Shown: positions 11,926-41,862, counted from the stretch's first letter. The stretch: DNA of 41,976 nucleotides from Deltaproteobacteria bacterium (GCA_013152945.1 JAADFL010000203.1:1-41976); one strand, 5' to 3'. Numbers and translations are program-made. The notes: a model not told the origin generated them from the sequence alone.

Positions 11926-11955
11926 CGCAGCTTGCCGAAAAGGAGAAAGTGCCAG

Positions 11956-24656: not shown

Positions 24657-25122
24657 GAGGTCAACGTTCCAATTTCCAGCTTTTAAGCTAGCATCGGCCT
24701 TCAATTGCGGTCAACCGGAAAATGGATACCAGGATGTCATTCACGCAATCAACCGACAAGAAAACGGGAAGAAAAAGCAATGATAAGAAAAACTATGAAA
24801 AGGAGAGCAATAAAGAGAATAAGCGCTTTGTGTACTGCTGACAACTCTGTGGACAAGAATGTGGACAAACTTGCAACTAACCGTAAAGACCGGGCTCTAA
24901 GTGCCGATATTCTACATGTCCGAAAATATGGCTTTTCTGTGCAGGATGCCCTTGTTTACAGGCCTTCTAAAGTCTCTTTTCGGTCCAATACCTGTGGAAA
25001 ACCCGATCATGCGCAATCGGCCGTATTCGCCCCAGGCCGGGATTGATCAAAAATACATGCCTGGGATACTGCCCACACAAGTCAAGCAGAGGAGCCGACA
25101 TTATGCAGAATGGATTGTTGCT
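24657..25122. other. Divergent gap before dnaA with DnaA-box-like sites; candidate origin or autoregulatory region
   Basis: This 466-base gap separates the AgmX-type gene and dnaA. TGTGGACAA (reverse complement TTGTCCACA) occurs at 24848-24856 and again at 24860-24868, spaced 12 bases. TGTGGAAAA (reverse complement TTTTCCACA) is at 24993-25001. All three have the same orientation. A purine- and A-rich stretch lies at 24759-24830. TTGTCCACA is the preferred box in some lineages and TTTTCCACA fits the E. coli TTWTNCACA consensus. The cluster could be oriC or DnaA autoregulation. Confidence 0.5.
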
Positions 25123-26457
25123 ATGACCGACGAATGGTTACAGGTATTGGATTCCCTCAAAGAACTGGTGCCGGGTCATGCATTCGACTCGTACTTGAGG
25201 GACATAGTACCATCTGAATTGGGAGATTCAGGAAGACTGATCCTTAATGTGCCGGACAGGTTCACTGTTGACAGGATAGAGCGGTCGTTCGCCCCATTGA
25301 TAGAGACTGAATTCGAAAAAATCGTTGGAAAACCCATAAAGGTGGCCTTTAACATAGACGAAACCCTGAAGAGGAACAATTCTTCGCAGGAAGAGCTGCC
25401 CGAAATAACCGAAGAGTCTTTGCCCAAAACCAGGCCGGGACCGGTAGGGGTCAACCCTGATTACACCTTTGATAATTTCGTAGTAGGCCCATGCAACCAG
25501 GTTGCCAGTGCTGCCGCCATGGCCCTGGCGGAAAGAAACGGCGGTCTTCTGAATCCCTTGTTTCTGTTCGGAGCCACCGGGCTTGGAAAAAGTCACCTGG
25601 CTTGCGCCATTGCCCATCATGTCAATTCATCACACAAAAGAAAAAACAAGGTGATGTACATTTCCGCCGAGAGATTCGTCAACGAGATGGTGACCTCTCT
25701 CAGGCAAAACAGGATATACGAATTCAAAGACAAGTTCAGAAAGAGCTGTGACCTGTTGATAGTTGACGACGTGCAGTTTCTTACAGGCAAGGTCATGACC
25801 CAGGGAGAGTTGTTCCATACTCTGGATGAGCTTCAATCCGCGGGCAAACAAGTAGTCCTGGTCAGTGACGTGCCACCCAGGGAGATACCCGACCTGGATG
25901 AAAGATTAAGGTCCAGACTCGGCTCGGGCCTAGTGGTCGATCTCAAGCCGCCGGGCAGGGAAACCAGGAAAGCCATACTACGCCACAAAGCCCACAGGGA
26001 GGGACTTGACGTACCAGAAGAAATAATAGATTACATCGCATCCCTGGTTGCAACCAATGTAAGAGACTTGGAGGGCGCCCTGGTGAGGGTGGTCTCGACG
26101 GCTTCTTTCAGTAATAGGAAACTATCATTGAAGCTAGCCGAAGATGTCCTCCGGGATGTTGTGCCGGCCGCGCTGTCCGTATCGATGAACGCGATAACCG
26201 CGCTTGTTTGCAGGTACTACCAGTTGAAACCTCAGGTCTTGCTCGGCAAGAGCCGAAAACGTAATGCAGTACTTGCAAGACAGGTTGCCATGTACCTCTC
26301 CAGGCGGTTCAGCGATGCATCGCTGAATGAAATCGGGCAGGAATTCAACCGTGATCATTCAACAGTCCTGCATTCGATTCAAACCATCAATAAAAAGATA
26401 CAGGAAAATGCGGCATTTTACCGGCAGATCGAATTCCTGGCGTCCAAGATCGGCTAG
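25123..26457 (+). CDS. dnaA: Chromosomal replication initiator protein DnaA
   Basis: 444-aa replication initiator. Domain I starts at MTDEWLQVLDSLKELVP. A short acidic linker precedes domain III at PDYTFDNFVVGPCNQVA. Walker A is GATGLGKS (Lys156), Walker B is LLIVDDVQFL, sensor/arginine-finger residues lie in LDERLRSRLGSGLVVDL, and domain IV has the DNA-binding signature in ARQVAMYLSRRFSDASLNEIGQEFNRDHSTVLHSI. The signature has FNRDHST where FGGRDHST is common. The ATG at 25123 gives the normal length; the open frame extends 74 codons upstream through the DnaA-box region but that extension has no domain I character. No strong ribosome-binding site precedes 25123. dnaN, recF and gyrB are not adjacent. 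Confidence 0.95.
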   Translation: MTDEWLQVLDSLKELVPGHAFDSYLRDIVPSELGDSGRLILNVPDRFTVDRIERSFAPLIETEFEKIVGKPIKVAFNIDETLKRNNSSQEELPEITEESLPKTRPGPVGVNPDYTFDNFVVGPCNQVASAAAMALAERNGGLLNPLFLFGATGLGKSHLACAIAHHVNSSHKRKNKVMYISAERFVNEMVTSLRQNRIYEFKDKFRKSCDLLIVDDVQFLTGKVMTQGELFHTLDELQSAGKQVVLVSDVPPREIPDLDERLRSRLGSGLVVDLKPPGRETRKAILRHKAHREGLDVPEEIIDYIASLVATNVRDLEGALVRVVSTASFSNRKLSLKLAEDVLRDVVPAALSVSMNAITALVCRYYQLKPQVLLGKSRKRNAVLARQVAMYLSRRFSDASLNEIGQEFNRDHSTVLHSIQTINKKIQENAAFYRQIEFLASKIG

Positions 26458-26993: not shown

Positions 26994-27191
26994 GCCGGTT
27001 TTTAAGGCCTGTACTTGTCTTGTGGGCATAGGATTATAAAAAATATTTTTTAAGACCTTGTCCTTGGTTTTTTATAAGAGCATCCATAATTTTTTTATAT
27101 GTGTTTTTCAATTTTCCAACCTGTTTGCACCCTGAATTATTTTTGAGTAGACTGGTATCATGAAAATTCAGATGTGCACCAGAGGCTGATT
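26994..27191. other. A+T-rich gap with 14-bp A/T palindrome
   Basis: A 5-bp stem AGGCC/GGCCT (26992-26996 and 27006-27010) overlaps the preceding stop codon; it has a T-rich loop but no T-tail. AAAAAATATTTTTT (27038-27051) is a perfect 14-bp palindrome. A weak promoter-like pair, TTGGTT (27064-27069) and TAATTT (27087-27092), is 17 bases apart. The stretch to about 27117 is markedly A+T-rich and could be a curved promoter region or an unwinding element. Confidence 0.4.
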
Positions 27192-28544
27192 ATGATTTTA
27201 CTTATCTATTTCCGGCTATCCGAAATAACGGCCAAGGCATTGCTCCTTTTGCTTACCGGAGCACTGATCTCATGCTCCGGCTCGGTGGCCGATAATAACA
27301 ATGATACTTCCCAAAAGATCCCGTGTTCAAGGAACAGTGACTGCCCGCCGAATTGGACATGCATGTTCGACTGGTGCGTCAAGGGCGGCAGTGATAGTGA
27401 TTCGGATACTGACACGGATTTGGATACCGACACTGATATTGACACCGACACTGACACCGACACTGACACTGATACTGATACAGGCGCTTCATATGGCGGC
27501 TCGTGCCGTAGAAACGGAGACTGTGCTTCAGAGAAATGCCTGGTCTTGAAAGATCTTGCTGTCAGCAACTGCACCAAGAATTGTGCATCCAACCAGGATT
27601 GTTCCAAGATGAGCGGATGGACATGCGAGAAATTGTACGGCGAGTTGGTGTGTGCTCCATTGCATGGGGGAGACACGGACGCGGATACGGATACGGACAC
27701 GGACATGGATGCCGACACGGACACGGATGCCGATACGGACACTGACACAGACACGGATACCGACACGGATACGGATACCGGCACGGATACTTGTCCTGAA
27801 AAACCTACCATAGCCGGCGGTGTTACTGTGTACGAGTTGATCTTCCCGGATATGCTCTCCAGTTACAATCGAGGGAATGCCTTTGCCTTCTTCGGGCAGG
27901 TGAAAACCGGCAATGGCAACGAAGTCCAGCCTGATTGGAAAAACGACAAATGTGCAGCATACGTCGGTCAGGACCTAAGCACCTCTTACGAGCCAAAAGC
28001 CAGTCTCGACGCAGGCAAAATAACAGTAACGGGCACCAAGGCCAGGACAACGCTTACAAGGGATGCTTTTGACAAGACATACTCGAGTTCGCTGAATAAA
28101 GACAACAAAGACATCTTTGACAGCAACAGGACAATCATGGTCCAGGCCGAAGGAGGCGGGGACATCGGTCCATTCAACTTGGAAGTCAATTCACCTTCCT
28201 CTGTGACCGTCACATCACCCAGCAGCGGTTCAACTATCAGCAAATCCTATGATCTTACGATCAAGTGGGTTCCATCCGGCACAGGAGGAATCAGTGTTCT
28301 TGTTTCGGCTGTGGTCAAGGAGGGAGATACCATCAAGGAGGCCACCAGTATCGTTTGCGGAGCAAAAGACCAGGATGGATCGGTAATAATCCCCAAGGAA
28401 GCCCTTTCGTTGTTGCCTTCAAAAGCCAGTACCGGCGGTTTCTCTGTGACGAGGGCCAATGCAGCCGGTGAAACCATGTGCGAAATTGGGGTGGGCTTGA
28501 CCGTTAGTACGACTTTCGGCGGGTATTTTAATATTACTCCCTAA
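27192..28544 (+). CDS. Surface lipoprotein with two Asp-Thr repeat blocks and Cys-rich modules
   Basis: 450-aa predicted lipoprotein. The signal has a hydrophobic core ending LTGALISC, a good lipobox. A small Cys-rich module follows (CPPNWTCMFDWC), then a first Asp-Thr/Asp-Ser block of 30 residues. A second Cys-rich module comes next (SCRRNGDCASEKCLVL ... CTKNCASNQDCSKMSGWTC), then a second block of 40 residues. The C-terminal 250 residues are beta-rich, with an Ig-like end (VTSPSSGSTISKSYDLTIKWVPSG). No catalytic motif is seen; a binding, adhesive or structural role is likely. ATG 27192 is favoured because AGAGG is six bases upstream; a GTG at 27174 is the alternative. The style matches lipoproteins common in myxobacterial-type genomes. 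Confidence 0.85.
   Translation: MILLIYFRLSEITAKALLLLLTGALISCSGSVADNNNDTSQKIPCSRNSDCPPNWTCMFDWCVKGGSDSDSDTDTDLDTDTDIDTDTDTDTDTDTDTGASYGGSCRRNGDCASEKCLVLKDLAVSNCTKNCASNQDCSKMSGWTCEKLYGELVCAPLHGGDTDADTDTDTDMDADTDTDADTDTDTDTDTDTDTDTGTDTCPEKPTIAGGVTVYELIFPDMLSSYNRGNAFAFFGQVKTGNGNEVQPDWKNDKCAAYVGQDLSTSYEPKASLDAGKITVTGTKARTTLTRDAFDKTYSSSLNKDNKDIFDSNRTIMVQAEGGGDIGPFNLEVNSPSSVTVTSPSSGSTISKSYDLTIKWVPSGTGGISVLVSAVVKEGDTIKEATSIVCGAKDQDGSVIIPKEALSLLPSKASTGGFSVTRANAAGETMCEIGVGLTVSTTFGGYFNITP
27393..27482 (+). repeat. Asp-Thr coding repeat, block 1
   Basis: Ninety bases of hexamer-type GAYACN repeats encoding Asp alternating with Thr (occasionally Ser, Leu or Ile). Third-base variation keeps the DNA from being a perfect microsatellite. 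Confidence 0.9.
27672..27791 (+). repeat. Asp-Thr coding repeat, block 2
   Basis: About 120 bases of GAYACN repeats encoding Asp alternating with Thr, Ala, Met or Gly, separating the Cys-rich module from the beta-rich C-terminal half. Confidence 0.9.
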
Positions 28545-28766
28545 GACAAGCTTGGACCTGCGGTACTTTATTCGGTAATAATTAAAAACCTCTAAAACCT
28601 CGATCGATGATTCATGGAACAATATGAGCTGTTGGAGGGCATCCCGATTAGAGCTGAAATGCACCAACACTTGACCGGTGCTCCTTATTTCCGGAGAATT
28701 ATCCAATGGAGTATTTGACTCGAAGAATCACCCGGTGGATATATGAACTGCAAGGAGAAGATTGGA
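28545..28766. other. Gap ahead of the amylolytic gene cluster
   Basis: This 222-base gap is the only sizeable break in the plus-strand run from 27.2 to 41.9 kb and should carry the main promoter of the six-gene amylolytic unit. I could not pick a convincing promoter pair or operator, and no clear terminator follows the preceding gene. Confidence 0.35.
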
Positions 28767-31700
28767 ATGAGCCTTAAAAATAAAAACATGGAATCCTATT
28801 TTCCTGTTTCGCTTTCAACTATTTTCTTACTGACTTGTATCCAGGTTTTCGCCGCCGGTTGCAGCACGGGTGGGAGTTCAAATGACCTCTGCTTGGACAA
28901 GGATTGCGGCGATTACGGTGAGTGCGTGGTTACAGGGGGCCGTGCCTCCTGTCTCTGTGTAGCCGGTTATATCGAAGACCAGGGCAAGTGCATCAAGAAT
29001 CCTTGTTCTTCATCTCCATGTGCTCACGGCACATGCACGCCGGACGGCAAGAATGCATTGTGCAAATGCGAGCCCGGGTACTCGGGGGCATTGTGTGACC
29101 AATGCGGCCCCGGTTACCACGTGCAAGGACTCACCTGCGTGCCGGGATCGCCTTGCAGGGACGATCCCTGTGTATACGGGAGATGCAGAAACGTGGGAGG
29201 AGTTCCAATCTGCGAGTGCTTTACCGGTTATTCAGGAGACCTGTGTGATAGATGTGCATCAGGCTATCACACAGAAAACCTCAAGTGTGTATCCGATACA
29301 GCCTGTGATCCCGATCCCTGCGTGCATGGTTTGTGTATCGAACAGGAAGGAAGTGCAAGCTGCAAGTGTGATCCCGGATACTCGGGAGATTACTGTAACC
29401 AGTGCGCAAACGGTTACCACGAAGAAGATCTCTTATGCGTTCCGGATATGGGTGGACCATGTGATCCCAACCCCTGCAAGGAACAAAACAAGACGAGATG
29501 CAAAGAACAAGGCCAAGGTGGCTTTGTTTGCTTGTGCGATCCCGGGTTCCACGAGGAAAATGGAACCTGTGTGGAAGATACGGAGTGTTCGCCCAACCCG
29601 TGTGATGAAGTCAACAAGACCGTATGCAAGGAGGATGGAAAGGGAGGCTTCGTATGCAACTGCGATGCGGGATACCATGAGGACAACAATGATTGTGTTC
29701 AAGACACCGTCTGTTCGCCCAACCCGTGCAACGAAGTCAACAAGACCGTGTGTAAGGAGGATGGGAAGGGAGGTTTCGTATGTAACTGCGATGCGGGATA
29801 CCATGAAGACAACAATAATTGCGTTCAGGACACTGTTTGTAATCCGGGCACGACTTGTTCGGGGCATGGCACCTGCACCGGAAACGGTCTTGAATGTTCC
29901 TGCAACTCGGGATTTACAGGCGAACATTGCAATACATGCGATGCAGGATACCACGAAAAGAACGGAACGTGTCTTGCGGACACACCTTGCGATCCCAATC
30001 CGTGTAAGATTGTTCACAAGACATCATGCCAGGAGGTTTCGGGGAAGGCGGAATGCGACTGTGACCCGGGTTATCAGGATGAAGACCATGACGGCGCCTG
30101 TAAACCGGACTGTGAAAACGCCGGCCTGAATTGCGGAGACCACGGACACTGTGAAATATTGCTTGGAACGGCCTCTTGTACCTGTGACACCGGTTACACC
30201 GGTACTACCTGTTCCGGATGCGATCAGGGTTTCCAGGACAATGACAACAATCAAACATGCATGCCGGATTGCGAACATGCAGGGCTGGATTGCAGGGGCG
30301 GATCATGTGACGACAGTTCAGGCATTGCCGCCTGTGCAGGCCAAAGGTCATGCAAGACAGTAGTAAGTTATGATCCGGCGGGCGAGAAGGTTTCATCGAT
30401 ATACATTCGTGGAGAATTCAACGGATGGTCGTTGGATAATCCGTTGGTCCTTCAGCCGGACGGCATATTCAAGGTCGAACTCGATCTTCAACCCGGAGAC
30501 TATGGTTACAAATTCTATGACCAAGGCAATGATCGCTGGTTCGAAGATCCGGCAAATCCATATTTCAAATGGGTCGATGGAAATCAAAACTCAAGACTCA
30601 GGGTGCCTGATTGCAGCCTTCCAATGCTCCAGTTGGTTTCCGCACCAGTTGTCCAGGGAGGAAACATCAGTTTCAAGGTTCATTATCTGGATGGCTCCAA
30701 AGGGGCCGGGCTGGATGCGTCCAGGGTTACGGCCCGGAGAAACGGCGTGGATCTTGGCTTGTCCTTCGATCCGCAAAGCATGGAGTTGTCCGTGAACGAC
30801 AAAGGCCTGGCTCCCGGCAAATACAGCTATACGTTCAAGGCGTTCGACAAGGCTTCCAGACCTACGCAACTTCTTTTCGTACCTTTGTGGGTGGAACAAG
30901 AACATTTTTCATGGCAGGATGCCATCATGTATTTTGTACTGACCGACCGGTTCAAGGATGGGGATCCATCCAATGACAATCCCACTCCCGGAGTGGATCA
31001 AAAGGCCAACTGGCAGGGAGGGGACTTCAAGGGAATACTGGAGGAGATCGAAGACGGATATTTCGACGGCCTGGGAGTCAATACCTTGTGGATATCGTCT
31101 GTAATCCAGAACACCGGCAACTCAGGCCTGGGTAGTGACGGCCACTTGTACTCGGGCTACCATTCATATTGGCCCATAGCCACGGGCTGGAGGGATGACA
31201 ACCCGCTGCCCGGGGTAAAGCCCATAGACCCGCATTTCGGAGACCTCAATCTCCTGAAGCAGCTCGTCCAGACTGCTCACGAGCATGGAATAAGGATAAT
31301 CGTGGACTTTGTGGCCAATCACGTGCACCAGGACAGTCCCCTTTGGCTCGAACATAAGGATGACGATCCTCCATGGTTTCACGACCTGTATGTATGTGGC
31401 TGGGATCAGCCCATCAATTGCTGGTTCGCTCCCTACCTTCCCGACTTTGATTACAAGAACCTGGATGTATTGAAAACCGTCGTGGAACACGCGATTTGGC
31501 TTGCTCAACAAACTAATATCGACGGCTTCAGGTTGGATGCCGTAAAGCACATGATACATGATTTTTCCTTTGCGCTTAGGGCCAGGATCCAAGAGAGTGT
31601 AGCTACCACAGCCACACGATTCTACATGGTGGGAGAAACATTCACAGGAGAAGACGGCGCTGGTTTGATCAAAGAATACGTAAGGCCCGAAGAGTTGGAT

Positions 31701-32435
31701 GGTCAATTCGATTTTCCCTTGTACTGGCAGGTAGTCAAGACTTTCTTGAGAGAAGAACAGGATTTTCGCGGTCTGGAGTCCATGCTCGAGTGGGACCAGG
31801 GGTACTATGGATCGTGGGCGATCATGTCCAACTTCATGGGCAACCATGATGTTCCAAGGGCGCTTTCCCATGCAGCCGGCCAGATTGCCGACATGTGGGG
31901 GAACGGCGCAAAAGAACAGGGCTGGAGTAATCCGCCCGGACTGCCGCAGGGAGATTTGGCTTTTAAGCGTCTTTGTTCAGCCTGGACGTTTCTTATGAGC
32001 ATTCCGGGTATTCCCTTGATATATTACGGTGACGAGATCGGCATGCCTGGAGCGGGTGACCCGGATAACAGGAGACCAATGATATTCGGAGACCAACTGG
32101 ATCCGAGACAAAAGGCCACGCTTGACCATGTTGAAAAACTGACTGCGGCAAGGGCTGCACATCCTGCTTTGAGGTACGGTGTCAGACAACAACTCTACAT
32201 GTCCGGTGACGGTCTGATTTGGTCTTACGGGCTGTCCCATGGAAATGATTGGGCCATAGTCGCATTCAATCGCACGGACAAGGATCAAACAATAGATATT
32301 CCTGTCTCCGACATGGATATTTCAGGCGGCACAAGGCTGAAAGATGTAATAAGCGGGAACGTTTCAACAGTATCATCGGGTAAATTATCCATAAACCTTG
32401 CATCAAGGGAGAGCGCTCTCTTGGTCCTGGAGTAG
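28767..32435 (+). CDS. EGF-repeat / CBM48-like / GH13 alpha-amylase family lipoprotein
   Basis: 1222-aa predicted surface lipoprotein. The signal ends FAAGC. Some 520 residues of EGF-like modules follow, with Cys patterns like DPCVHGLCIEQ then CKCDPGYSGDYC; two units are near-identical tandem copies. A CBM48-like starch-binding domain (IYIRGEFNGW) and an all-beta linker precede the GH13 barrel. All four GH13 regions are intact: VDFVANHVH (about 31302), GFRLDAVKH with the nucleophile Asp codon at 31536-31538, VGETF with the acid/base Glu at 31635-31637, and GNHDVPR with the transition-state Asp at 31848-31850. It should cleave internal alpha-1,4 (or alpha-1,6) bonds of starch, glycogen or pullulan outside the cell. 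ATG 28767 has GGAG nine bases upstream; ATG 28743 is the alternative. The next gene starts four bases after the stop. Confidence 0.9.
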   Translation: MSLKNKNMESYFPVSLSTIFLLTCIQVFAAGCSTGGSSNDLCLDKDCGDYGECVVTGGRASCLCVAGYIEDQGKCIKNPCSSSPCAHGTCTPDGKNALCKCEPGYSGALCDQCGPGYHVQGLTCVPGSPCRDDPCVYGRCRNVGGVPICECFTGYSGDLCDRCASGYHTENLKCVSDTACDPDPCVHGLCIEQEGSASCKCDPGYSGDYCNQCANGYHEEDLLCVPDMGGPCDPNPCKEQNKTRCKEQGQGGFVCLCDPGFHEENGTCVEDTECSPNPCDEVNKTVCKEDGKGGFVCNCDAGYHEDNNDCVQDTVCSPNPCNEVNKTVCKEDGKGGFVCNCDAGYHEDNNNCVQDTVCNPGTTCSGHGTCTGNGLECSCNSGFTGEHCNTCDAGYHEKNGTCLADTPCDPNPCKIVHKTSCQEVSGKAECDCDPGYQDEDHDGACKPDCENAGLNCGDHGHCEILLGTASCTCDTGYTGTTCSGCDQGFQDNDNNQTCMPDCEHAGLDCRGGSCDDSSGIAACAGQRSCKTVVSYDPAGEKVSSIYIRGEFNGWSLDNPLVLQPDGIFKVELDLQPGDYGYKFYDQGNDRWFEDPANPYFKWVDGNQNSRLRVPDCSLPMLQLVSAPVVQGGNISFKVHYLDGSKGAGLDASRVTARRNGVDLGLSFDPQSMELSVNDKGLAPGKYSYTFKAFDKASRPTQLLFVPLWVEQEHFSWQDAIMYFVLTDRFKDGDPSNDNPTPGVDQKANWQGGDFKGILEEIEDGYFDGLGVNTLWISSVIQNTGNSGLGSDGHLYSGYHSYWPIATGWRDDNPLPGVKPIDPHFGDLNLLKQLVQTAHEHGIRIIVDFVANHVHQDSPLWLEHKDDDPPWFHDLYVCGWDQPINCWFAPYLPDFDYKNLDVLKTVVEHAIWLAQQTNIDGFRLDAVKHMIHDFSFALRARIQESVATTATRFYMVGETFTGEDGAGLIKEYVRPEELDGQFDFPLYWQVVKTFLREEQDFRGLESMLEWDQGYYGSWAIMSNFMGNHDVPRALSHAAGQIADMWGNGAKEQGWSNPPGLPQGDLAFKRLCSAWTFLMSIPGIPLIYYGDEIGMPGAGDPDNRRPMIFGDQLDPRQKATLDHVEKLTAARAAHPALRYGVRQQLYMSGDGLIWSYGLSHGNDWAIVAFNRTDKDQTIDIPVSDMDISGGTRLKDVISGNVSTVSSGKLSINLASRESALLVLE
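29586..29837 (+). repeat. Tandem 126-bp EGF-module duplication
   Basis: Two near-identical copies of 126 bases (29586-29711 and 29712-29837), each encoding a 42-residue EGF-like unit that starts CSPNPC and ends in a GYHEDNN-containing stretch. The small number of differences implies recent duplication or gene conversion. Confidence 0.85.
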
Positions 32436-32439
32436 TACT

Positions 32440-35400
32440 ATGTCTTTTGAAAAAAACAGGCATGTATCTTTTTCTCCGTTTCATCTATTACCTGCATTGT
32501 TACTTGTCTCCCTGGCAGCCTTGATTTTGTCCTCCGGTTGCAGTCCATCCAAAACCGGTGATCTTTGCAGAGACGTGGATTGTTCCCTGCATGGCGTATG
32601 CAAGGTAAGAGGCAACCTGGCTGTATGCGATTGCCAGCAAGGATATGTCGCAAGGGGCCTTACGTGTATTAAGGATCGTTGCAGTGAAATGGACTGTGGT
32701 AACGGCATGTGTTCCCAGGACGCGGACAGTGCCTGGTGTGACTGCAAGGCCGGCTGGCAAGGGGACCGTTGCGATACATGTGCTGCAGGCTACCACGAAG
32801 ACGGTTCTGAATGCGTTCCGGACAAGCCGTGCTCCCGGGATCCATGCATACACGGTAAATGCAGGGTTACCGGACAAGGTAAGGAGACCTGTGACTGTGA
32901 CAAGGGTTATTCAGGGAACATCTGTGAAAAATGTGCAGATGGGTACAAACCAAGCGGGCTTACATGCGTGCCTGATTCAGGTGATGCAGATACCGACACC
33001 GACACAGACACCGATATTGACACCGACACAGACACAGACACAGACACCGATACAGACATTGACACAGATACCGACACTGATACGGATACCGACACAGACA
33101 CTGACACCGACACAGACACTGACACCGACACTGACACTGACACCGACACAGACATTGATACAGACACCGACACAGACACTGACACCGACACTGACATTGA
33201 CACCGATATTGACACCGACACCGACATTGACACCGATACAGACATTGACACAGATACCGACACCGACACGGATACCGACACCGATACGGATATCGACACT
33301 GACACTGACACCGATACGGATACCGACACTGGTTCGAATGCCTGCCCTTACGGCTATTCCGGATTCCCAAAATGCAACCAATGTGATGCCGGTTTTCATG
33401 AGCAAGGCATGGTTTGCATACCGGACTGCACATTTTCAGGATCCGCCTGTGACAAGGCAAAGCAATCAGCCACGGCCCTTGTTTCGGCCAATGGCCATGG
33501 TGCAATCGTGTACGACATACCATCCAGAAAGGCTACTGTGCTTTATGAACATCCTTATAGAAACTGGGACAAGGATGTATGGACGAGAGACATCCTATAT
33601 GACACGTACTTGGGTATTCGAACTCCTTCGATACATACCTGGCTCAATGAGATAGAACCAAAGGGAGTGGAATACTTCGACCAGACAGGCATCATTCATA
33701 CTGTTCACACAGCGGGCGGCTTCAGAATCGATAGTTACATCTATGCACCCTGGGAGATAGGCAGGCCGGCACTTGTAATTATTGGCAAGGTGAGTAACAT
33801 TTCTGATACCGAATCCAAGGTTTCACTGTATACGATACACAATTATCACCTGGGTTACACCTCGGACCAGGACCATGTAAATCCGGATGCAAGGGATGAG
33901 GAAATAAAATACCTGGCCGAAGAAAACGCCTATGTTGAAACCGGGCCGGGCGGCGCCATTGTACACAAGGCTCTTGGAAAACCGGATCACTTTGGATGCA
34001 CGCCCGACAACCCGTGGCAGGCGCTGAATCAAGGTCTGGACCTTGCAGATACAAGTGAAAGCGGGAAAGGCTATGATCGGGTACCCGGTTTCCAGAAGGA
34101 TTTCGACCTTTCTCCGGGCCAATCCGGTTATTTCGGTGTTGTGTCCGTATTTGACAATTTCGGCGACGAGGCCACGCTGCTTTCAGATGTAAAAAAGGCC
34201 TATGCAGCAATGGACGCAGAAACTACGCTCAACAAGGCCATTGGCAATTGGAGGGCTTGGCGATCCGAACCTCCCTTGGGACTTTCCAAGGCCGAACTGT
34301 TCACATTCAGGCAGTCCGAGGCCATACTGAGACAAGGGCAGGTTTGGGAGCCCAATGATGAAAACCAAAATCCCAGGGGCCAGGTTGTTGCGTCCCTTCC
34401 GCCGGGAAAGTGGAACATCTGCTGGGTGCGGGATATGTCCTATGCACTCGTGGCCTTTTCAAGGGTGGGCCATCTCGACGAGGCAAAAGCAGGTCTTGAT
34501 TTCGTTTTTACGGCTGATTCCGGACTGTACCAAAACCAATATGTAAAGGTTCCGTACAAGGTGTCTGTAACACGTTATTTCGGCCGTGGAAAGGAAGAGA
34601 CAGACTTCAACCAGGACGGTCCGAATATCGAGTTCGACGGTTTCGGCCTGTTCTTATGGGCACTGGGTGAATATTACAGGGCATCATCCGATACTACCTT
34701 GGTTGCTGCCAGGTGGAACACGATCAAGAACGAAATAGCAGGAGCCCTGCTGGCCTTGTTGGACCAGGACACCGGTCTCATCAGTCCTGATTCTTCGATT
34801 TGGGAGGTACACTGGAATGGCAACCAAAAGAGGTTTGTCTACACGTCATCGGCCGCTGCGCGAGGTCTTTGCGAGGCATCCAAACTTGCGGTCGCAATGA
34901 AAGACGACCAGGCATCCAATGGTTTTGAAAACGCCGCCGTGTCCATAAAACAGGCCATATCGTCTGTGTGCACGGATAAAAACTCGACCCTGGCAAGTTC
35001 GTACGAACAGTTGCAGCAGGGTTCCGGTTACCTGGACATGGCTGTCGTGGAGGCCATGAACTGGATGTTGTTCGACCCCGCGGGAACTGTCGTAACATCC
35101 ACGTTGAATGCACTCGAACAGGACCTTAAGGTCGACAGTAAAATGGGATTCTTCAGGAGAAACGCTCCCGGTTCCGATTGGTACGATGCTCAAGAATGGG
35201 CATTCCTGGATTTGAGAACATCTTCTGTTTACAGGCATGCAGGAAAAAGCGAGCCGGCTGACGCCCTTCTCGACTGGACGACCGCACAGGCGATAAAGAA
35301 TTATGGAATGATAGCAGAGTTGTACAATCCCGACAGCAGTGAGTACGAAGGAGAAGTCCCAATGGTGGGCTTTGGGGCCGGTGCTTATATAATGGCGTTG

Positions 35401-35457
35401 CTTGATCGAGTATACGGTCCTGCAGTGTCGCCGGATTGTGGTTTCTTCGGTAAATGA
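32440..35457 (+). CDS. EGF / Asp-Thr stalk / GH15-like glucoamylase lipoprotein
   Basis: 1005-aa predicted lipoprotein. The signal ends LSSGC. Three EGF-like modules follow (for example DPCIHGKCRVTG then CDCDKGYSGNIC), then a 116-residue Asp-Thr stalk, another Cys pair region (CPYGYSGFPKCNQCDAGFHEQGMVC) and a catalytic region of about 670 residues. The latter begins with a beta-sandwich-like part (NWDKDVWTRDILYDTYLGI) and continues with an (alpha/alpha) barrel of the GH15 type: CWVRDMSYALVAFSRVGH, GFGLFLWALGEYYR, SSIWEVHWNG with the likely acid Glu codon at 34804-34806, and IAELYN with the likely base Glu at 35317-35319. It should release glucose or short sugars from non-reducing ends. ATG 32440 has GGAG seven bases upstream. 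The next gene overlaps by ATGA. Confidence 0.85.
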   Translation: MSFEKNRHVSFSPFHLLPALLLVSLAALILSSGCSPSKTGDLCRDVDCSLHGVCKVRGNLAVCDCQQGYVARGLTCIKDRCSEMDCGNGMCSQDADSAWCDCKAGWQGDRCDTCAAGYHEDGSECVPDKPCSRDPCIHGKCRVTGQGKETCDCDKGYSGNICEKCADGYKPSGLTCVPDSGDADTDTDTDTDIDTDTDTDTDTDTDIDTDTDTDTDTDTDTDTDTDTDTDTDTDTDTDIDTDTDTDTDTDTDIDTDIDTDTDIDTDTDIDTDTDTDTDTDTDTDIDTDTDTDTDTDTGSNACPYGYSGFPKCNQCDAGFHEQGMVCIPDCTFSGSACDKAKQSATALVSANGHGAIVYDIPSRKATVLYEHPYRNWDKDVWTRDILYDTYLGIRTPSIHTWLNEIEPKGVEYFDQTGIIHTVHTAGGFRIDSYIYAPWEIGRPALVIIGKVSNISDTESKVSLYTIHNYHLGYTSDQDHVNPDARDEEIKYLAEENAYVETGPGGAIVHKALGKPDHFGCTPDNPWQALNQGLDLADTSESGKGYDRVPGFQKDFDLSPGQSGYFGVVSVFDNFGDEATLLSDVKKAYAAMDAETTLNKAIGNWRAWRSEPPLGLSKAELFTFRQSEAILRQGQVWEPNDENQNPRGQVVASLPPGKWNICWVRDMSYALVAFSRVGHLDEAKAGLDFVFTADSGLYQNQYVKVPYKVSVTRYFGRGKEETDFNQDGPNIEFDGFGLFLWALGEYYRASSDTTLVAARWNTIKNEIAGALLALLDQDTGLISPDSSIWEVHWNGNQKRFVYTSSAAARGLCEASKLAVAMKDDQASNGFENAAVSIKQAISSVCTDKNSTLASSYEQLQQGSGYLDMAVVEAMNWMLFDPAGTVVTSTLNALEQDLKVDSKMGFFRRNAPGSDWYDAQEWAFLDLRTSSVYRHAGKSEPADALLDWTTAQAIKNYGMIAELYNPDSSEYEGEVPMVGFGAGAYIMALLDRVYGPAVSPDCGFFGK
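32983..33330 (+). repeat. Long Asp-Thr/Asp-Ile coding repeat
   Basis: 348 bases of GAY-ACN/ATT hexamers encoding 116 residues in which every second residue is Asp, mostly alternating with Thr and at irregular intervals Ile. Thr codons are mixed (ACC, ACA, ACT, ACG). It separates EGF modules from the catalytic part of the glucoamylase-like lipoprotein. The reverse strand gives long Ser-Val open frames that are shadows. Confidence 0.95.
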
Positions 35458-37664
35458 CAAAAATGGGCAGGCATTCCATTACACCCGCGCCTCGTTCGCT
35501 CCGGGGCTTATTTCCAGCAGCTATTGTTATTGTTTTCTGCCCATCTCTCCTCTTTCCTGGATGCATGGAAGGCTCTACATCGGGCATTACCGGTACAATG
35601 CATTCGAGAACGGATTGCTCGTTCATTGCCATGTTCGAGCCCACCGGACCTGTTTCGGATATCGAGGTCGTGGGAGACTTCAACGGTTGGGTCAAAGGAT
35701 CGGATTACATGCATGATAACAACAATGACGGTGTATACTGGGCCGAACTCAAAGCACCCAAGGGTTGGCATCAATACAGGATACTGGTTGACGGCGAGAC
35801 ATTTCAGGATCCCTTCAATCCCCTTACCCTGTTCGACGAAGCAGGAAGAGAGAACTCCGCCTTTTATATCCCTGACTGTTCCAGGCCCAAGCTTTCGCCG
35901 TACAGTCTCGACGTGAGCCGGGATGGTTCGGTTACGGCACGGGTGCTTTTCGAACAGGGCGCCAAAGGAACAGGGCCGGACAGGGCCGGCACTTTTGCAA
36001 TTTTGGACAATGATTTCGAACTCGAACCGGATGTCGATAACAACGGTACGATATCGATCGAGACTTCGGATCTGCCCCCGGGAAAGCACATTATTCGAAT
36101 CAATGCCGTGGATGAGGCGGGAAAAAAGGCAGATCCCCTTGCCTTGCGGTTCTGGGTGGAAGACAGGAAATTCGACTGGAGAGATGCAATCATATACCAG
36201 GTGATGATAGACAGGTTTCGAAAGGCAGACGGCGCTTTGGATTCATCTTCTTCCATCTCATTCTTTCATGGTGGTGACCTGGATGGAGTGCGGCAGGCTC
36301 TGGAGGATGGATACTTCACAAGCCTCGGAGTGAATGTAATCTGGCTCTCACCTGTGTACGAAAACCCTGAAGGAACATTTACAGGCAGGGACGGCTATCC
36401 TTCACAGGCATATCATGGGTATTGGCCCAGTCAGCCGAGGTCGGTGGAAGAACGTTTCGGCGGTGACGAGGCATTGGCAAGACTGGTCCGGGCTGCACAT
36501 GAAAGAGGTATCAGGATCATGGCGGACCTGGTTTTGAACCACGTAGAAAAAGAACATCCGTATTTCAGGAATTATGGGGGGGCCGGCTGGTTCAACCACC
36601 CTGATGGTGATTGCATTTGCGGCTCAACCTGTCCCTGGTCCACGAGCATCGAGACCTGCTGGTTCGATCCGTTTCTCCCGGATCTGAACTGGAAGAACAC
36701 ACACGTCGTGGAGCAATTGATTTCAGATGCCGAGTACTGGGCCGGCCATTTCGACTTGGACGGTTTCAGGCTGGATGCAGTTCCAATGATGCCCAGGCTG
36801 GCCACCAGGCATCTCGCAAAGGCCATGGAGAAAGGACCCGGGGTGTCCGGTTTGAAGTTTTTCCTGTTGGGAGAGACCTACACCATGAAGCAGGGACAGA
36901 TGCAGATTCAATATTATCTGGGCCCGCACGGACTTTCAGGACAATTCGATTTCCCTGTTATGTGGGCATTGAGAGATGCCCTTGCTGGGCGTTCCACCAT
37001 GGCCGACCTTGACGATGAGATTAAAGCCGGCGAAGATGCCTGGAAAGGTTCCGGGGCCGTTATGGGCATGATCCTCGGAAATCACGATGTGGCTAGGTTC
37101 ATTTCAGATATAAACAATGACAATATTCATGACCCAAGAAACAATCCGCCGGCCAGGCCTCAAACCAAGAAACCATATGAATTGATGAAAATGGCGTGGA
37201 CCTTCCTGTTCACAATGCCAGGCATGCCCGTAATATACTATGGAGATGAATTCGGCATGCCAGGCGCCACAGACCCGGACAACCGCAGAAACATGAGGTT
37301 TCAAAACGATTTGAGTCAAAATGAAAAGGCCTTGCTGGACTATGTTAGAAAACTGGCAAAGGCACGAACCTGTTCCGATGCACTGAGAAGGGGTGAACGG
37401 ACAACACTGGAGGCAAGACCTCTTATCTATGTGTACGCAAGAGATTGCGGAAACGGTTACCCTGCCGTGGTTGCATTCAACTCGGCTATTGAACAACGTA
37501 CCATCAAGATAAATCTGCCTGAAAACATCAAGGTCGCGGCAGGCGCTGAATTCAAAGATATTCTTTCAGGAAAAGCCTGGGGCCGGGCCGGGGAACTTGA
37601 AATCGACATCGGGCCCAGATCTTCAGTTTTGTTGCTTTCCGGCCCCAAATGCAATTCGAGGTGA
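35454..37664 (+). CDS. CBM48-like / GH13 alpha-amylase family lipoprotein
   Basis: 736-aa secreted protein, paralogous to the gene at 28767 without its EGF part. The N-terminal hydrophobic segment ends LLFPGC; Pro before the -1 residue is atypical for a lipobox. A CBM48-like domain (IEVVGDFNGW, WHQYRILVDGE) and a beta linker lead into the GH13 barrel: ADLVLNHV; GFRLDAV with nucleophile Asp441; LGETY with Glu474; and GNHDVAR with Asp545. Region II continues PMM where the paralogue has KH, a change at residues that contact plus-side sugar subsites, so product pattern may differ. PGMPVIYYGDEFGMPGATDPDNRR matches cyclomaltodextrinase/neopullulanase-like enzymes. The ATG overlaps the previous stop (ATGA), indicating translational coupling. 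Confidence 0.88.
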   Translation: MTKMGRHSITPAPRSLRGLFPAAIVIVFCPSLLFPGCMEGSTSGITGTMHSRTDCSFIAMFEPTGPVSDIEVVGDFNGWVKGSDYMHDNNNDGVYWAELKAPKGWHQYRILVDGETFQDPFNPLTLFDEAGRENSAFYIPDCSRPKLSPYSLDVSRDGSVTARVLFEQGAKGTGPDRAGTFAILDNDFELEPDVDNNGTISIETSDLPPGKHIIRINAVDEAGKKADPLALRFWVEDRKFDWRDAIIYQVMIDRFRKADGALDSSSSISFFHGGDLDGVRQALEDGYFTSLGVNVIWLSPVYENPEGTFTGRDGYPSQAYHGYWPSQPRSVEERFGGDEALARLVRAAHERGIRIMADLVLNHVEKEHPYFRNYGGAGWFNHPDGDCICGSTCPWSTSIETCWFDPFLPDLNWKNTHVVEQLISDAEYWAGHFDLDGFRLDAVPMMPRLATRHLAKAMEKGPGVSGLKFFLLGETYTMKQGQMQIQYYLGPHGLSGQFDFPVMWALRDALAGRSTMADLDDEIKAGEDAWKGSGAVMGMILGNHDVARFISDINNDNIHDPRNNPPARPQTKKPYELMKMAWTFLFTMPGMPVIYYGDEFGMPGATDPDNRRNMRFQNDLSQNEKALLDYVRKLAKARTCSDALRRGERTTLEARPLIYVYARDCGNGYPAVVAFNSAIEQRTIKINLPENIKVAAGAEFKDILSGKAWGRAGELEIDIGPRSSVLLLSGPKCNSR

Positions 37665-37667
37665 AAC

Positions 37668-38213
37668 ATGAGTCGTTCAATTATAGACTCGGCCAAACGG
37701 ATGACGCGAACCGTAGAAATATTGGTGGTCCTGATATTCCTGGTTGCAGGGGCCATGCCATCATGCGGCGATCTCCATACATCGGTCGATCAGGAGGAAT
37801 ATCAAAATCACGAAGAGCCGAAGCCTGAAGACCAGTGGAGGCCGAAGGAAAAACCGTCCAATGATTGCAGTTACGGGTACGGCGAAGAATGCCCCGAACC
37901 CGCGGTGGATTGCGGCAAGGCTCCGTGCATCCACGGCATTTGCGTAGACGGTGAAAAAGGCGCTGAAGATTATTGCCTGTGTGACACAGGATATGCAGGG
38001 CTTCTATGCGACACATGCGCAAAAGGATTCAAGCCAAAGGACCTCGAATGTGTGCCTGATTCGCCATGCGCCGGCGGCCCGTGCGTCTTTGGAACTTGCA
38101 GGGAAAAGGACAATGGTTTTTGGTGTGACTGTTACACGGGTTATACGGGTAGACTTTGTGACACTTGTGCCGATGGATACCATTCTGCCGGCATGCAATG
38201 CGTGCCGGATTGA
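37668..38213 (+). CDS. Stand-alone EGF-module lipoprotein
   Basis: 181-aa secreted protein: a basic N-terminus, a hydrophobic core, then MPSC as a possible though non-canonical lipobox. An acidic Glu/Pro/Lys-rich spacer follows, and then two EGF-like modules (KAPCIHGICVDG then CLCDTGYAGLLC; GGPCVFGTCREK then CDCYTGYTGRLC). The protein stops right after the CVPD that in the neighbouring lipoproteins leads into further modules. It thus looks like the EGF portion of the cluster without an enzyme, either a scaffold/docking partner or a truncated paralogue. GAGG is six bases before ATG 37668, only three bases after the preceding stop, so it is clearly part of the operon and is translated. Confidence 0.8.
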   Translation: MSRSIIDSAKRMTRTVEILVVLIFLVAGAMPSCGDLHTSVDQEEYQNHEEPKPEDQWRPKEKPSNDCSYGYGEECPEPAVDCGKAPCIHGICVDGEKGAEDYCLCDTGYAGLLCDTCAKGFKPKDLECVPDSPCAGGPCVFGTCREKDNGFWCDCYTGYTGRLCDTCADGYHSAGMQCVPD

Positions 38214-38288
38214 TTCTATATTGTTAATCCTGATCACGATTGACTGGGACACGTTCACCTAATAGACTCACTGCAACCTGGAGGAAAA

Positions 38289-39758
38289 TTGGAGAGTAAA
38301 TCCGTTCGCAATTTTTTGGTTTGCTTACTGGCCGTTTATCTCTATTCTCCTTCCGTGCCGGCACAAGGCCATGTAATCAGGAAAGACCAGAATACGAGCC
38401 CCGTATTGTTGCAACCGAAAAAGCAGGAAGCAAAGAAACAGAAAGATTCGAGGCACTTGAAACTGAAAATAGAAGAGGGATTCCAGTTCGGTTCGTACGG
38501 CAGGGTCTCAGTTGGTTCGGACATGGAGGGAGGCACGGGAAGGCAGGTAAGGGTGATAGCACACCCTCCGAGATTGCTGGAAGCGCCCTATGCAGAGATA
38601 GACCTCTCCTATACCCAGAAGGTATCGGATACAGGTGCATGTTTTCATACCCAGACGACGCTTGCACTGGGTGAGAAGCTCTTTCATTTCACCGGTGATT
38701 TCACTTCGGACATTGCAGTTCGAAACCTGTACCTCGAAACCAGGGACGCACTTGCCAAGGGCCTTGATATCTGGGCCGGCTCCAGGATGTATCGTGGTGA
38801 CGACGTGTACCTCCTCGATTTCTGGCCCCTGGACGAACAGAATACGGTCGGCGGCGGGCTTGTCTATTCATTCGGCGAAAGCAACGTGCGATTGCACGTG
38901 GGATTCAACCGGCTTAACGACAAGTTCCAGACACAGACAATCGTTGTTCCCGGAGAGAAAACAGGGACCAAGCAGGTTCTTTTCATGGACCGCCAGAGGA
39001 CTGTATTGACCTTGCGTGGAGAGCATCATTTCGAACTTCTTCCGAACCTGAAACTCAAGGCAGTGCTGTACGCAGAAGGACATACCTTGCCGTCGGGAGT
39101 GTACAAGACTCCCGACCGGGACGAGGAAAGACTTCCTGCGGACGCAGGCTGGCTTGCCGGGGCTGAGGCGGGCCTGTACCAACCGGGCACGAGCAACCAT
39201 CTAAATCTTTTCGCCAGGTACGCGTCCGGCCTGGCCGCGTACGACGAGCTGGCCGTCCCTTTCGGCCTGGACAGGAACAAGAAGACATCAGGCGCCAAGG
39301 AGGTTCTGCTTGCTCTCTCGGGCAATTACGAGCCTGCATCGGCAGCAGGTATGCTGCTCGGCGCTTACCTTAGATATTTCGTGGATGCCGACCCGAACGT
39401 ATACGACCGCGACGATGCTTGGGAACTCGGGCTCGCTTTCAGGCCTGCATGGTTTGTAACCGAACACTTTCAGCTCTTGGGAGAGGTCAACATGCAGTAC
39501 CTGAGGCCCAACGGCCTGAACCCGGAAAGCCTGGAACAAGACAAACCTCTTGTGGTCGAGACGGCAATAATGCCGTCCTTATCCCTTGGCAAGGGAAGTT
39601 ATTCAAGACCCCAGTTGAGGCTGATATACGCCCTTACATGGCTCAATGACGCTGCTCTTCGTACCTTTGCCCCCCAAGATCCCTTGCGAAAGAGGTCATT
39701 GAGGCAATTTTTCGGACTCAGCGTGGAATGGTGGTTCCACAGCTCGAGGTACCATTAG
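38289..39758 (+). CDS. Maltoporin-like (LamB family) outer-membrane porin
   Basis: 489-aa predicted outer-membrane beta-barrel. The signal peptide (SVRNFLVCLLAVYLYSPSVPAQ) has a likely cleavage after PAQ or PSVPA. A Lys/Gln-rich N-terminal insert follows, then the LamB pattern: FGSYGRVSVGSD, PYAEIDLSY, LYLETRD, WAGSRMYRGDDVYLLDFWPLD, SRPQLRLIYALTW and a final VEWWFH strand ending in aromatic residues. Many alternating amphipathic strands separate these. Family members form trimers that let maltodextrins or other sugars diffuse across the outer membrane, consistent with the amylases on both sides. Start TTG 38289 lies four bases after GGAGG; no in-frame ATG exists before the mature part. I avoid the symbol lamB because sugar specificity is unproven. 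Confidence 0.85.
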   Translation: MESKSVRNFLVCLLAVYLYSPSVPAQGHVIRKDQNTSPVLLQPKKQEAKKQKDSRHLKLKIEEGFQFGSYGRVSVGSDMEGGTGRQVRVIAHPPRLLEAPYAEIDLSYTQKVSDTGACFHTQTTLALGEKLFHFTGDFTSDIAVRNLYLETRDALAKGLDIWAGSRMYRGDDVYLLDFWPLDEQNTVGGGLVYSFGESNVRLHVGFNRLNDKFQTQTIVVPGEKTGTKQVLFMDRQRTVLTLRGEHHFELLPNLKLKAVLYAEGHTLPSGVYKTPDRDEERLPADAGWLAGAEAGLYQPGTSNHLNLFARYASGLAAYDELAVPFGLDRNKKTSGAKEVLLALSGNYEPASAAGMLLGAYLRYFVDADPNVYDRDDAWELGLAFRPAWFVTEHFQLLGEVNMQYLRPNGLNPESLEQDKPLVVETAIMPSLSLGKGSYSRPQLRLIYALTWLNDAALRTFAPQDPLRKRSLRQFFGLSVEWWFHSSRYH

Positions 39759-39777
39759 CAAACAAGGGAGCGCTCGA

Positions 39778-41862
39778 ATGTTCTATAAAAAGGCAGGTGA
39801 TGATTTCGGGACAGGGTCCGGGGCGGGATCATATATCAACAGGATCGAGTACCTGTTGATTGCCGTAATGGGGCTGTATTTCCCGGCGTGCGTTTCCCCG
39901 CCCCCTGCCTTCGGGAATCTCACGGACAATGTAAAGGATTGGCGGGATGAGATAATCTACCAGGTGATGATTGATAGGTTTGCCGACAGTGATTCTTCGA
40001 ACGATTACAACGTGAACCTGTCCGATCCATCAGCTTACCATGGCGGTGACTGGAAGGGATTGATCAGCAAACTGGACTATCTTCAAACATTGGGGATAAC
40101 CGCGATTTGGATATCACCGGTTGTAAGGAACGTAGAGGAAGACGCCGGCTTTTCAAGCTACCACGGGTACTGGGCACAAGATCTTACGAGGACGAATCCC
40201 CACTTCGGCGATATATCCGCGCTGAAGGAACTCGTGGATGACGCCCATGCAAGGGGCATCAAGGTAATACTCGATATCGTGACCAACCACGTTGGACAAG
40301 TCTTCTTCTACGACATCAACAAGAACGGAGTGCCCGACGAGTTCTTCATCGGGCAGGGCGGCAAGATCATACCCATCGGGCAGGAGGGAGATACGTCCGA
40401 CCTTGTGAGGGTCACCGAATGGGACCCGGATTTCAACATCAACGGGATCCAGGCATGGACGTCACTGGGGCCGTCCGGCGAAGCGCCGGTTGTCTTTGTG
40501 CATGATCCCTCCATCGACCGCGTACCACCTTATCCTCCGCCGCTTGACAAGGCATATGCATACAATCGAAAGGGACGTGTCACTGTATGGACCAAGCCGC
40601 AGGTATGCGGATGCGAGTCCTGGGGATGTCCGTGGAACAACAAATGCCGCAGGGAACAGGAAGTACTCGGCGATTTCCCGGGAGGCCTCAAAGACCTGGA
40701 TACGACCAGGCAGGACGTGAGGAACGCGTTGTTCTGGTCATACAGCAGGTGGGTTGACATCGCGGATTTCGATGCATTCAGGATCGACACGTTGAAACAT
40801 GTTGAACCGGAATTCTTCGATGATTTTTGCCACAGGATGAGACAACACCTGGCGGCACGCGGCAAACACAACTTCTTCATGTTCGGAGAGGCCTTCGATG
40901 GTGACGACAATCTGCTCGGAAGCTATACCAAGGGACAGGGAGTCGACAGCGTATTTTACTTCTCCCAGTATTACACGGTATTCAGGGGAGCACTGATGGG
41001 CGACGGCCAGAGGACTTGTGAGATAGAAAGGCTTCATTGCCGCAGGTTGGGATGCATCTCTGATCCGTGCGGAGAGGGCGGGGCCATTGCATCGGTGTAC
41101 GGGGACCAGGGCAAGACCGGAGGAGTAACAGACGGTGACACTGGCGATCCCTTGAATTCGAGACAGGTGGCCGTCAATTTCATATCCAACCACGACGTAG
41201 GCAGGTTGCTCTTCTTTATGCCCGGTACATGGAGTGAGACCACAAAGCGCAAGACACTGCACCTGGCTCTTGCATACATGATGACAGAAGATGGAATCCC
41301 TTGTCTTTACTATGGAGTCGAGCAGGAATTCAGCGGCGGAAACGATCCTGCGAACAGGGAGACCATGTGGGACCCCGCGAGCTACACCAAGCAGGTATGG
41401 AAGGACGGCAGGTGGCAGGATGCAAGAAGAACCTATGATTCGGACCAGGATGGACTGGATGACACGGTATGGCTTCCGTTCGATACCGGGAACCCCACGT
41501 TCAAGTTCATTCAAAAACTAATCAGGATAAGAAAGGATCACGAGGCATTGAGAAGGGGGAATTTCACAGTCCGCTGGAGCACCAGGACCGCGGACGGCCC
41601 GGACAAGGGCATATTCGCCTTTGAAAGGACATACCATGACCAGACAATGCTTATCGTAATGAATCTTTCCCTGAAAGGTGAAAGTGAGACCAGGAGCAAC
41701 GCAGTCTCAATGTCAGTGAACTTCAGCCCCGGACAAGTGCTTACGGACTTGTTGGATCCCGGGTCCATGTTTACGGTCACGGACAAGGGATGCGAGGCGG
41801 GCAATGGGTGCCTGGATGTCAAGGTCCCTGCCAGGGGTATCAGGATACTGTCCTTGGAATAG
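39778..41862 (+). CDS. GH13 alpha-amylase family lipoprotein without CBM
   Basis: 694-aa secreted enzyme. A hydrophobic stretch ends YFPAC, a possible lipobox with the same unusual Pro at -2 as its neighbours. The GH13 barrel begins almost at once (RDEIIYQVMIDRFADSDSSNDY) and has LDIVTNHV; AFRIDTLKHV with nucleophile Asp337; MFGEAF with Glu371; and ISNHDVGR with Asp473. Two calcium-loop-like segments (DINKNGVPDE and DSDQDGLDD) and a Cys-rich insert (CGCESWGCPWNNKC) occur; the latter sits just before region II and is probably disulfide-bonded. It differs from the two CBM48-bearing paralogues and resembles extracellular alpha-amylases. GGGAG is eight bases before the ATG, 19 bases after the porin gene. 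Confidence 0.9.
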   Translation: MFYKKAGDDFGTGSGAGSYINRIEYLLIAVMGLYFPACVSPPPAFGNLTDNVKDWRDEIIYQVMIDRFADSDSSNDYNVNLSDPSAYHGGDWKGLISKLDYLQTLGITAIWISPVVRNVEEDAGFSSYHGYWAQDLTRTNPHFGDISALKELVDDAHARGIKVILDIVTNHVGQVFFYDINKNGVPDEFFIGQGGKIIPIGQEGDTSDLVRVTEWDPDFNINGIQAWTSLGPSGEAPVVFVHDPSIDRVPPYPPPLDKAYAYNRKGRVTVWTKPQVCGCESWGCPWNNKCRREQEVLGDFPGGLKDLDTTRQDVRNALFWSYSRWVDIADFDAFRIDTLKHVEPEFFDDFCHRMRQHLAARGKHNFFMFGEAFDGDDNLLGSYTKGQGVDSVFYFSQYYTVFRGALMGDGQRTCEIERLHCRRLGCISDPCGEGGAIASVYGDQGKTGGVTDGDTGDPLNSRQVAVNFISNHDVGRLLFFMPGTWSETTKRKTLHLALAYMMTEDGIPCLYYGVEQEFSGGNDPANRETMWDPASYTKQVWKDGRWQDARRTYDSDQDGLDDTVWLPFDTGNPTFKFIQKLIRIRKDHEALRRGNFTVRWSTRTADGPDKGIFAFERTYHDQTMLIVMNLSLKGESETRSNAVSMSVNFSPGQVLTDLLDPGSMFTVTDKGCEAGNGCLDVKVPARGIRILSLE

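Follow-up and report, generated by a model that had tools for sequence, protein, structure and literature searches.

Two described systems come closest to the locus reported here. The enterobacterial Mal system, taken together with the pullulanase PulA of Klebsiella, combines a maltoporin, an ABC importer of the MalK/E/F/G type, a lipoprotein of glycoside hydrolase family GH13, and a type II secretion system (T2SS) with GspN, a protein required for the surface display of lipoproteins, pullulanase included (PMC12802150). MalS of E. coli is a periplasmic enzyme (PMC10223318). The Sus system of Bacteroides pairs lipoprotein alpha-glucan enzymes with an outer-membrane channel in one locus. Two further groups of proteins bear on the comparison: myxobacterial proteins with the MYXO-CTERM signal, which directs them to the cell surface and is linked to the T2SS (PMC11980579), and the Sdr/Clf adhesins of Gram-positive bacteria, which carry long acidic dipeptide stalks.

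Here, we describe a six-gene locus from an uncultured deltaproteobacterium of the Myxococcota that probably represents a Mal-type alpha-glucan foraging system, with tethered lipoprotein enzymes, a LamB porin, and a Mal importer. The stretch of DNA that was analyzed, hereafter the window, is 41,976 nucleotides long and constitutes one entire contig (C203) of a 4.84-Mb genome that is 94% complete. ORF calling placed six plus-strand genes at 28743-41862, with the contig ending 114 bases past the last of them. Together with one neighbor, the features are as follows.

27174-28544, plus strand: neighboring lipoprotein with an Asp-Thr stalk (ORF; matches no Pfam family)
28743/28767-32435, plus strand: GH13a, a lipoprotein with about 10 EGF modules, a CBM48 module, and a GH13 domain (ORF, Pfam, catalytic residues)
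32440-35457, frame open from 32398, plus strand: GH15 lipoprotein with three EGF modules, an Asp/Thr stalk, and a GH15 domain (ORF, Pfam, AlphaFold model, fold search)
32983-33330, plus strand: Asp-Thr stalk within the GH15 protein (116 residues, 58 dipeptides)
35454-37664, plus strand: GH13b, a lipoprotein with CBM48 and GH13 (ORF, Pfam, catalytic residues)
37668-38213, plus strand: EGF-only lipoprotein (Pfam; homologue at the equivalent place in nine other loci)
38289-39758, plus strand: LamB-family maltoporin (Pfam, 18-strand model, fold search)
39778-41862, plus strand: GH13c, a GH13 lipoprotein without EGF or CBM (ORF, Pfam, catalytic residues)

The preliminary description of this DNA had listed six genes encoding, in order, EGF-CBM48-GH13, EGF-GH15, CBM48-GH13, EGF-only, LamB, and GH13 products, separated by gaps of -4 to 75 bases, and both the ORFs and the Pfam matches bear this out. 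The gaps measure 4, -4, 3, 75, and 19 bases in gene order (the first 4 bases of GH13b coincide with the end of the GH15 gene, stop codon included), and every catalytic family as well as LamB exceeded its Pfam cut-off. The genes may be expressed jointly. Promoter-like and terminator-like sites occurred at chance level, with one of each between the EGF-only gene and lamB, and a search of the window against Rfam yielded zero matches.

All three GH13 proteins, which are the only ones found in the genome, appear catalytically intact. Pfam recognized EGF, AMPK1_CBM (CBM48), and GH13 (4.8e-36) in GH13a, AMPK1_CBM (CBM48) and GH13 (9.3e-51) in GH13b, and GH13 (5.7e-57) in GH13c. The catalytic Asp/Glu/Asp residues lie in conserved regions and were invariant in each alignment: D932/E965/D1036 in GH13a (n = 21 sequences), D441/E474/D545 in GH13b (n = 20), and D337/E371/D473 in GH13c (n = 41). 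In GH13a, the lipobox Cys codon at 28860 is followed by the EGF array (~28887-30330), the CBM48 (30357-30605), and the GH13 barrel (30933-32051); within the array, two EGF modules at 29586-29840 form a recent tandem duplication with a 126-base unit and 89% matches.

The GH13 and GH15 families also contain enzymes of other specificities. We infer that the substrates here are alpha-glucans, and the more specific idea of a cyclodextrin route can be weighed on the same data. In such a route, GH13a would make or open cyclodextrins outside the cell, LamB would pass them, and GH13b or GH13c would act as cyclodextrinases. Many CGTases did occur among the solved relatives of GH13a, after the alpha-amylases, and cyclomaltodextrinase was the top NCBIfam model for both GH13a and GH13b; however, that model has a cut-off of 540 bits and scored only ~150, and the top PDB match of GH13a, like that of GH13c, was an alpha-amylase. 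We thus regard the cyclodextrin route as very unlikely.

The second enzyme of the locus can be assigned to GH15 by sequence and by fold. Pfam detected EGF and GH15 (2.4e-9; 37 bits versus a cut-off of 22), and the glutamates in the motifs DSSIWEVHW and IAEL were invariant in 13 sequences. These catalytic residues, E451 and E622 in the numbering of the aligned fragment, correspond to E803 and E974 of the frame that opens at 32398. The AlphaFold model (pLDDT 86.7) displayed an N-terminal beta-sandwich and a helical barrel. A sequence search of the PDB returned zero matches for this protein, and its relatives came from the fold search, where the nearest structures were dextran dextrinase, a bacterial glucoamylase, and glucodextranase (Z of 38 to 40, with the sandwich included).

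Between its EGF modules and its catalytic domain, the GH15 protein carries the Asp-Thr stalk, which had been reported as (DT)116 and which in fact comprises 116 residues, i.e., 58 dipeptides (49 DT, 8 DI, and 1 DA). Its codons are mixed, using synonymous forms, and it is therefore not a simple slippage repeat. Weak NCBIfam matches of the stalk were to the Ser-Asp repeats of Sdr/Clf adhesins; this likeness is compositional only, and the protein here differs from those adhesins in its lipoprotein anchor and in the use of Asp-Thr rather than Ser-Asp. Asp-Thr tracts are abundant across the genome, the neighboring lipoprotein at 27174-28544 being one example. The DT codon pattern gave 1801 + 1140 overlapping matches genome-wide, versus 13 + 4 for the reversed control, and zero matches in nine genomes with a locus of this kind. 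Because the tracts occur throughout this genome and are lacking from those nine relatives, the stalk reads as a habit of the lineage and as no special part of a starch machine. Likewise, since the loci of the relatives are devoid of DT tracts, the neighboring stalk lipoprotein probably lies outside the locus. Of the EGF and acidic stalk regions that had been suggested as tethers, the EGF arrays are present on two enzymes and the stalk is not specific to the locus. Both the EGF and the DT regions may serve as tethers.

The fifth gene encodes the only LamB found in the genome. It matched the Pfam profile from position 2 to 378 of 378 (3.8e-27; 96.6 bits versus a cut-off of 25.1), and its model (pLDDT 80.7) contained 18 long strands. 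When compared with known structures, this barrel was closer to LamB and the sucrose porin ScrY (Z of 33 to 35, rmsd 2.8 to 3.3, 356 to 371 aligned residues) than to other porins, the next unrelated fold reaching a Z of 21. By profile and model, the protein is a true maltoporin-family pore, for which the passage of maltodextrins is predicted. It carries an ordinary signal peptide without a lipobox. No close LamB relatives were found in viral contigs and plasmids.

Using the LamB of the window as query, we found relatives that were mostly Myxococcota or “Deltaproteobacteria” MAGs, with a few record titles at odds with the position of the sequence in the LamB tree. A LamB match occurred in 21 of the 57 genomes searched (the window’s own included), several of them with GH13 genes directly on either side; for the scan of named genomes, the best 80 of 276 LamB relatives were kept. 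A glycoside hydrolase of these families lay directly 3′ of lamB in 38 of 70 loci with at least 1.5 kb downstream (the window’s included) and directly 5′ in 18 of 70 loci with at least 1.5 kb upstream. Adjacency of lamB and GH13 genes is common across Myxococcota. EGF-bearing versions occurred in roughly twelve genomes of this phylum; in the LamB tree they formed two well-supported groups of 5 and 8 rows, the larger including the window and one locus that is truncated upstream. A search for the same gene order, as had been proposed, recovered the full set (EGF-GH13, EGF-GH15, GH13, EGF-only, LamB, and GH13) in L114 (identical to L025), L118, L120, and L124. The conserved gene order and the intact, invariant catalytic residues together indicate that the locus is more than a chance assembly. 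Myxococcota hereby gain a recognizable candidate locus for starch or glycogen foraging, which can be found through gene order.

These relatives also point to how the sugars would enter the cell. In L114, L120, and L124, genes for MalK, MalE, MalF, and MalG come next downstream of the set, and in L118, MalK does. In the genome studied here, the MalK/MalE/MalF/MalG genes sit on another contig, C44; the predicted importer is therefore present, with linkage to the locus seen in relatives. On C44, MalK and MalE share a single open frame of 854 residues (L092:10327-12891, minus strand), which encodes an ABC ATPase with MalK OB/TOBE domains, next a likely membrane helix, and finally a periplasmic binding protein. 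The relatives inspected have a separate MalK with its own stop, and L025 instead carries a fusion of MalE to MalF. An apparent MalK-MalE-MalF triple fusion in one relative (a 1652-aa open frame) was rejected, as MalK has its own stop there as well. The Mal-type assignment draws on this importer, both on its position directly downstream in relatives and on its presence on C44.

A comparison with the Bacteroides system leads to the same assignment. The preliminary description had likened the locus to Sus lacking SusC and SusD. A LamB-type porin indeed stands here in place of SusC, and a search of the genome with the SusD_RagB profile gave zero matches (the control matched only in Bacteroides), which upholds the absence of SusD genome-wide; the absence of a SusC-type TonB-dependent transporter holds for the six genes of the locus, where LamB is the only channel. 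Yet the analogy itself is not the best one, given the Mal importer that follows the locus in relatives and lies on C44 here. By analogy, the nearest functional counterpart is LamB/MalEFGK with the surface pullulanase PulA, not Sus. The locus departs from the enterobacterial route in having several lipoprotein enzymes, a GH15 among them, with putative EGF and DT tethers, in the clustering of these enzymes with lamB, and in the MalK-MalE or MalE-MalF fusions. The EGF tethers, the GH15, and the clustering with lamB are what set it apart from the known maltose route.

Where the enzymes reside is a question on which several lines of evidence bear. Lipoboxes were read directly on every enzyme (FAAG-C, LSSG-C, LFPG-C, and YFPA-C), in agreement with the hydrophobic, Cys-ending N termini noted earlier, and on the EGF-only protein (AMPS-C). 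The genome further encodes, on one contig, a full-length type II secretion GspD (5.6e-168) and GspN (4.7e-53), so that lipobox-bearing GH13 enzymes and a T2SS with GspN occur together, as in the Mal system. A GH15 orthologue without EGF, from a locus of the same kind (L112), passed the MYXO-CTERM model TIGR03901, which describes a C-terminal Cys motif, a helix, and an Arg-rich tail, with 22.5 bits against a curated cut-off of 20; three more GH15 orthologues scored slightly under this cut-off. In the window, MYXO-CTERM was absent among the seven NCBIfam families matched by the GH15, which instead has an N-terminal lipobox and an EGF array. From the lipoboxes, the GspD and GspN genes, and the MYXO-CTERM signal of the orthologue, we favor display of the EGF enzymes and the GH15 on the cell surface. 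Because the GH15 of one branch has a lipobox with EGF modules and that of another has MYXO-CTERM, these loci offer a natural test of lipoprotein routes to the surface in Myxococcota.

The residues that follow the lipidated Cys did not clearly set these enzymes apart from other lipoproteins. Mean counts of Gly/Ser/Asp/Asn were 2.2 to 2.4 in the three GH13 groups, compared with 3.3 in background lipoproteins; GH15 (n = 4) reached 5.3 and the EGF-only proteins 4.3. These residues, which are not clearly of a surface-sorting type, together with MalS-type alpha-amylase models among the best NCBIfam matches of GH13c (far under cut-off) and the periplasmic location of E. coli MalS itself, speak for an arrangement in which all the lipoproteins face the periplasm, forming a MalS-like enzyme set that receives only maltodextrins through LamB, with EGF and DT regions as periplasmic spacers. 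Such an arrangement is unlikely: CBM48 on two enzymes fits polymers that are too large for LamB, a GH15 orthologue bears the MYXO-CTERM surface signal, and the genome has both GspD and GspN. For GH13c, a periplasmic, MalS-like placement could nevertheless apply, as it lacks EGF and CBM and, in the window, its post-Cys residues resemble the published surface motif least. The machine may thus not be wholly on the surface, as had been claimed.

For a Mal-type system with surface-displayed enzymes, the following course can be proposed. The EGF arrays, plus the Asp-Thr stalk on GH15, would keep the catalytic domains off the membrane, and maltodextrins would cross via LamB. Their trimming would fall to GH13c, perhaps in the periplasm, and their uptake to the MalK/MalE/MalF/MalG importer, whose genes lie elsewhere in this genome and beside the locus in relatives. 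An alpha-glucan degradation locus of lipoproteins with a LamB porin, as originally described, is supported by the Pfam matches, the catalytic residues, and the porin fold, with alpha-glucan as the presumed substrate. Myxococcota include predators, and the sequence leaves the source of the glucan unfixed, so the enzymes might instead serve predation or envelope turnover, degrading alpha-glucans of the cell itself or of prey (capsule, or glycogen released when prey lyse) and not starch from the environment. We consider this most improbable, as LamB, and the Mal importer that is linked to the locus in relatives, point to nutrient uptake, whatever the source.

The animal-like EGF modules are not strange in themselves in this setting, as many genomes of the phylum have them (119 of the 282 that were searched, versus 0 of 14 control genomes). 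In two relatives, an EGF-GH31 protein (L104:3634-7266) and an EGF-GH57 protein (L102:850-3474) lie upstream of the same lamB locus, and in L106, the GH15 domain is preceded by one EGF module and a Gly/Ala-rich linker. EGF arrays hence appear to be exchangeable tethers among GH13, GH15, GH31, and GH57 catalytic domains, suggesting a bacterial mode of hydrolase display on swapped EGF arrays. No EGF-tethered amylase system was described in the open-licence literature searched, which is weak evidence of absence. In the same genome, an EGF module is joined to an S41 peptidase/tricorn-like protein (L094:8-1906), and EGF modules are thus not confined to glucan enzymes.

The EGF-only lipoprotein, which matched EGF families only in Pfam, consists of its lipobox, an acidic linker with a conserved W-x-P, and two EGF modules. 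Counting that of the window, ten loci have a homologue placed after GH13b and before lamB, with the lipidated Cys and the W-x-P of the acidic linker invariant and with one or two EGF modules. Owing to this fixed position beside lamB, the most interesting role for the protein would be that of a dedicated LamB partner, with EGF-EGF contacts gathering the enzymes over LamB into a surface starch-degrading complex, a SusD counterpart on a passive porin; we put this forward as a speculative and rather unlikely possibility.

Elsewhere in the window, a glycogen-debranching-type amylo-alpha-1,6-glucosidase (GDE_N and GDE_C) is encoded at 11932-13956, ~15 kb upstream of the locus, and a DnaA protein with a complete domain set at 24901-26457, ~2.3 kb upstream of the locus start.
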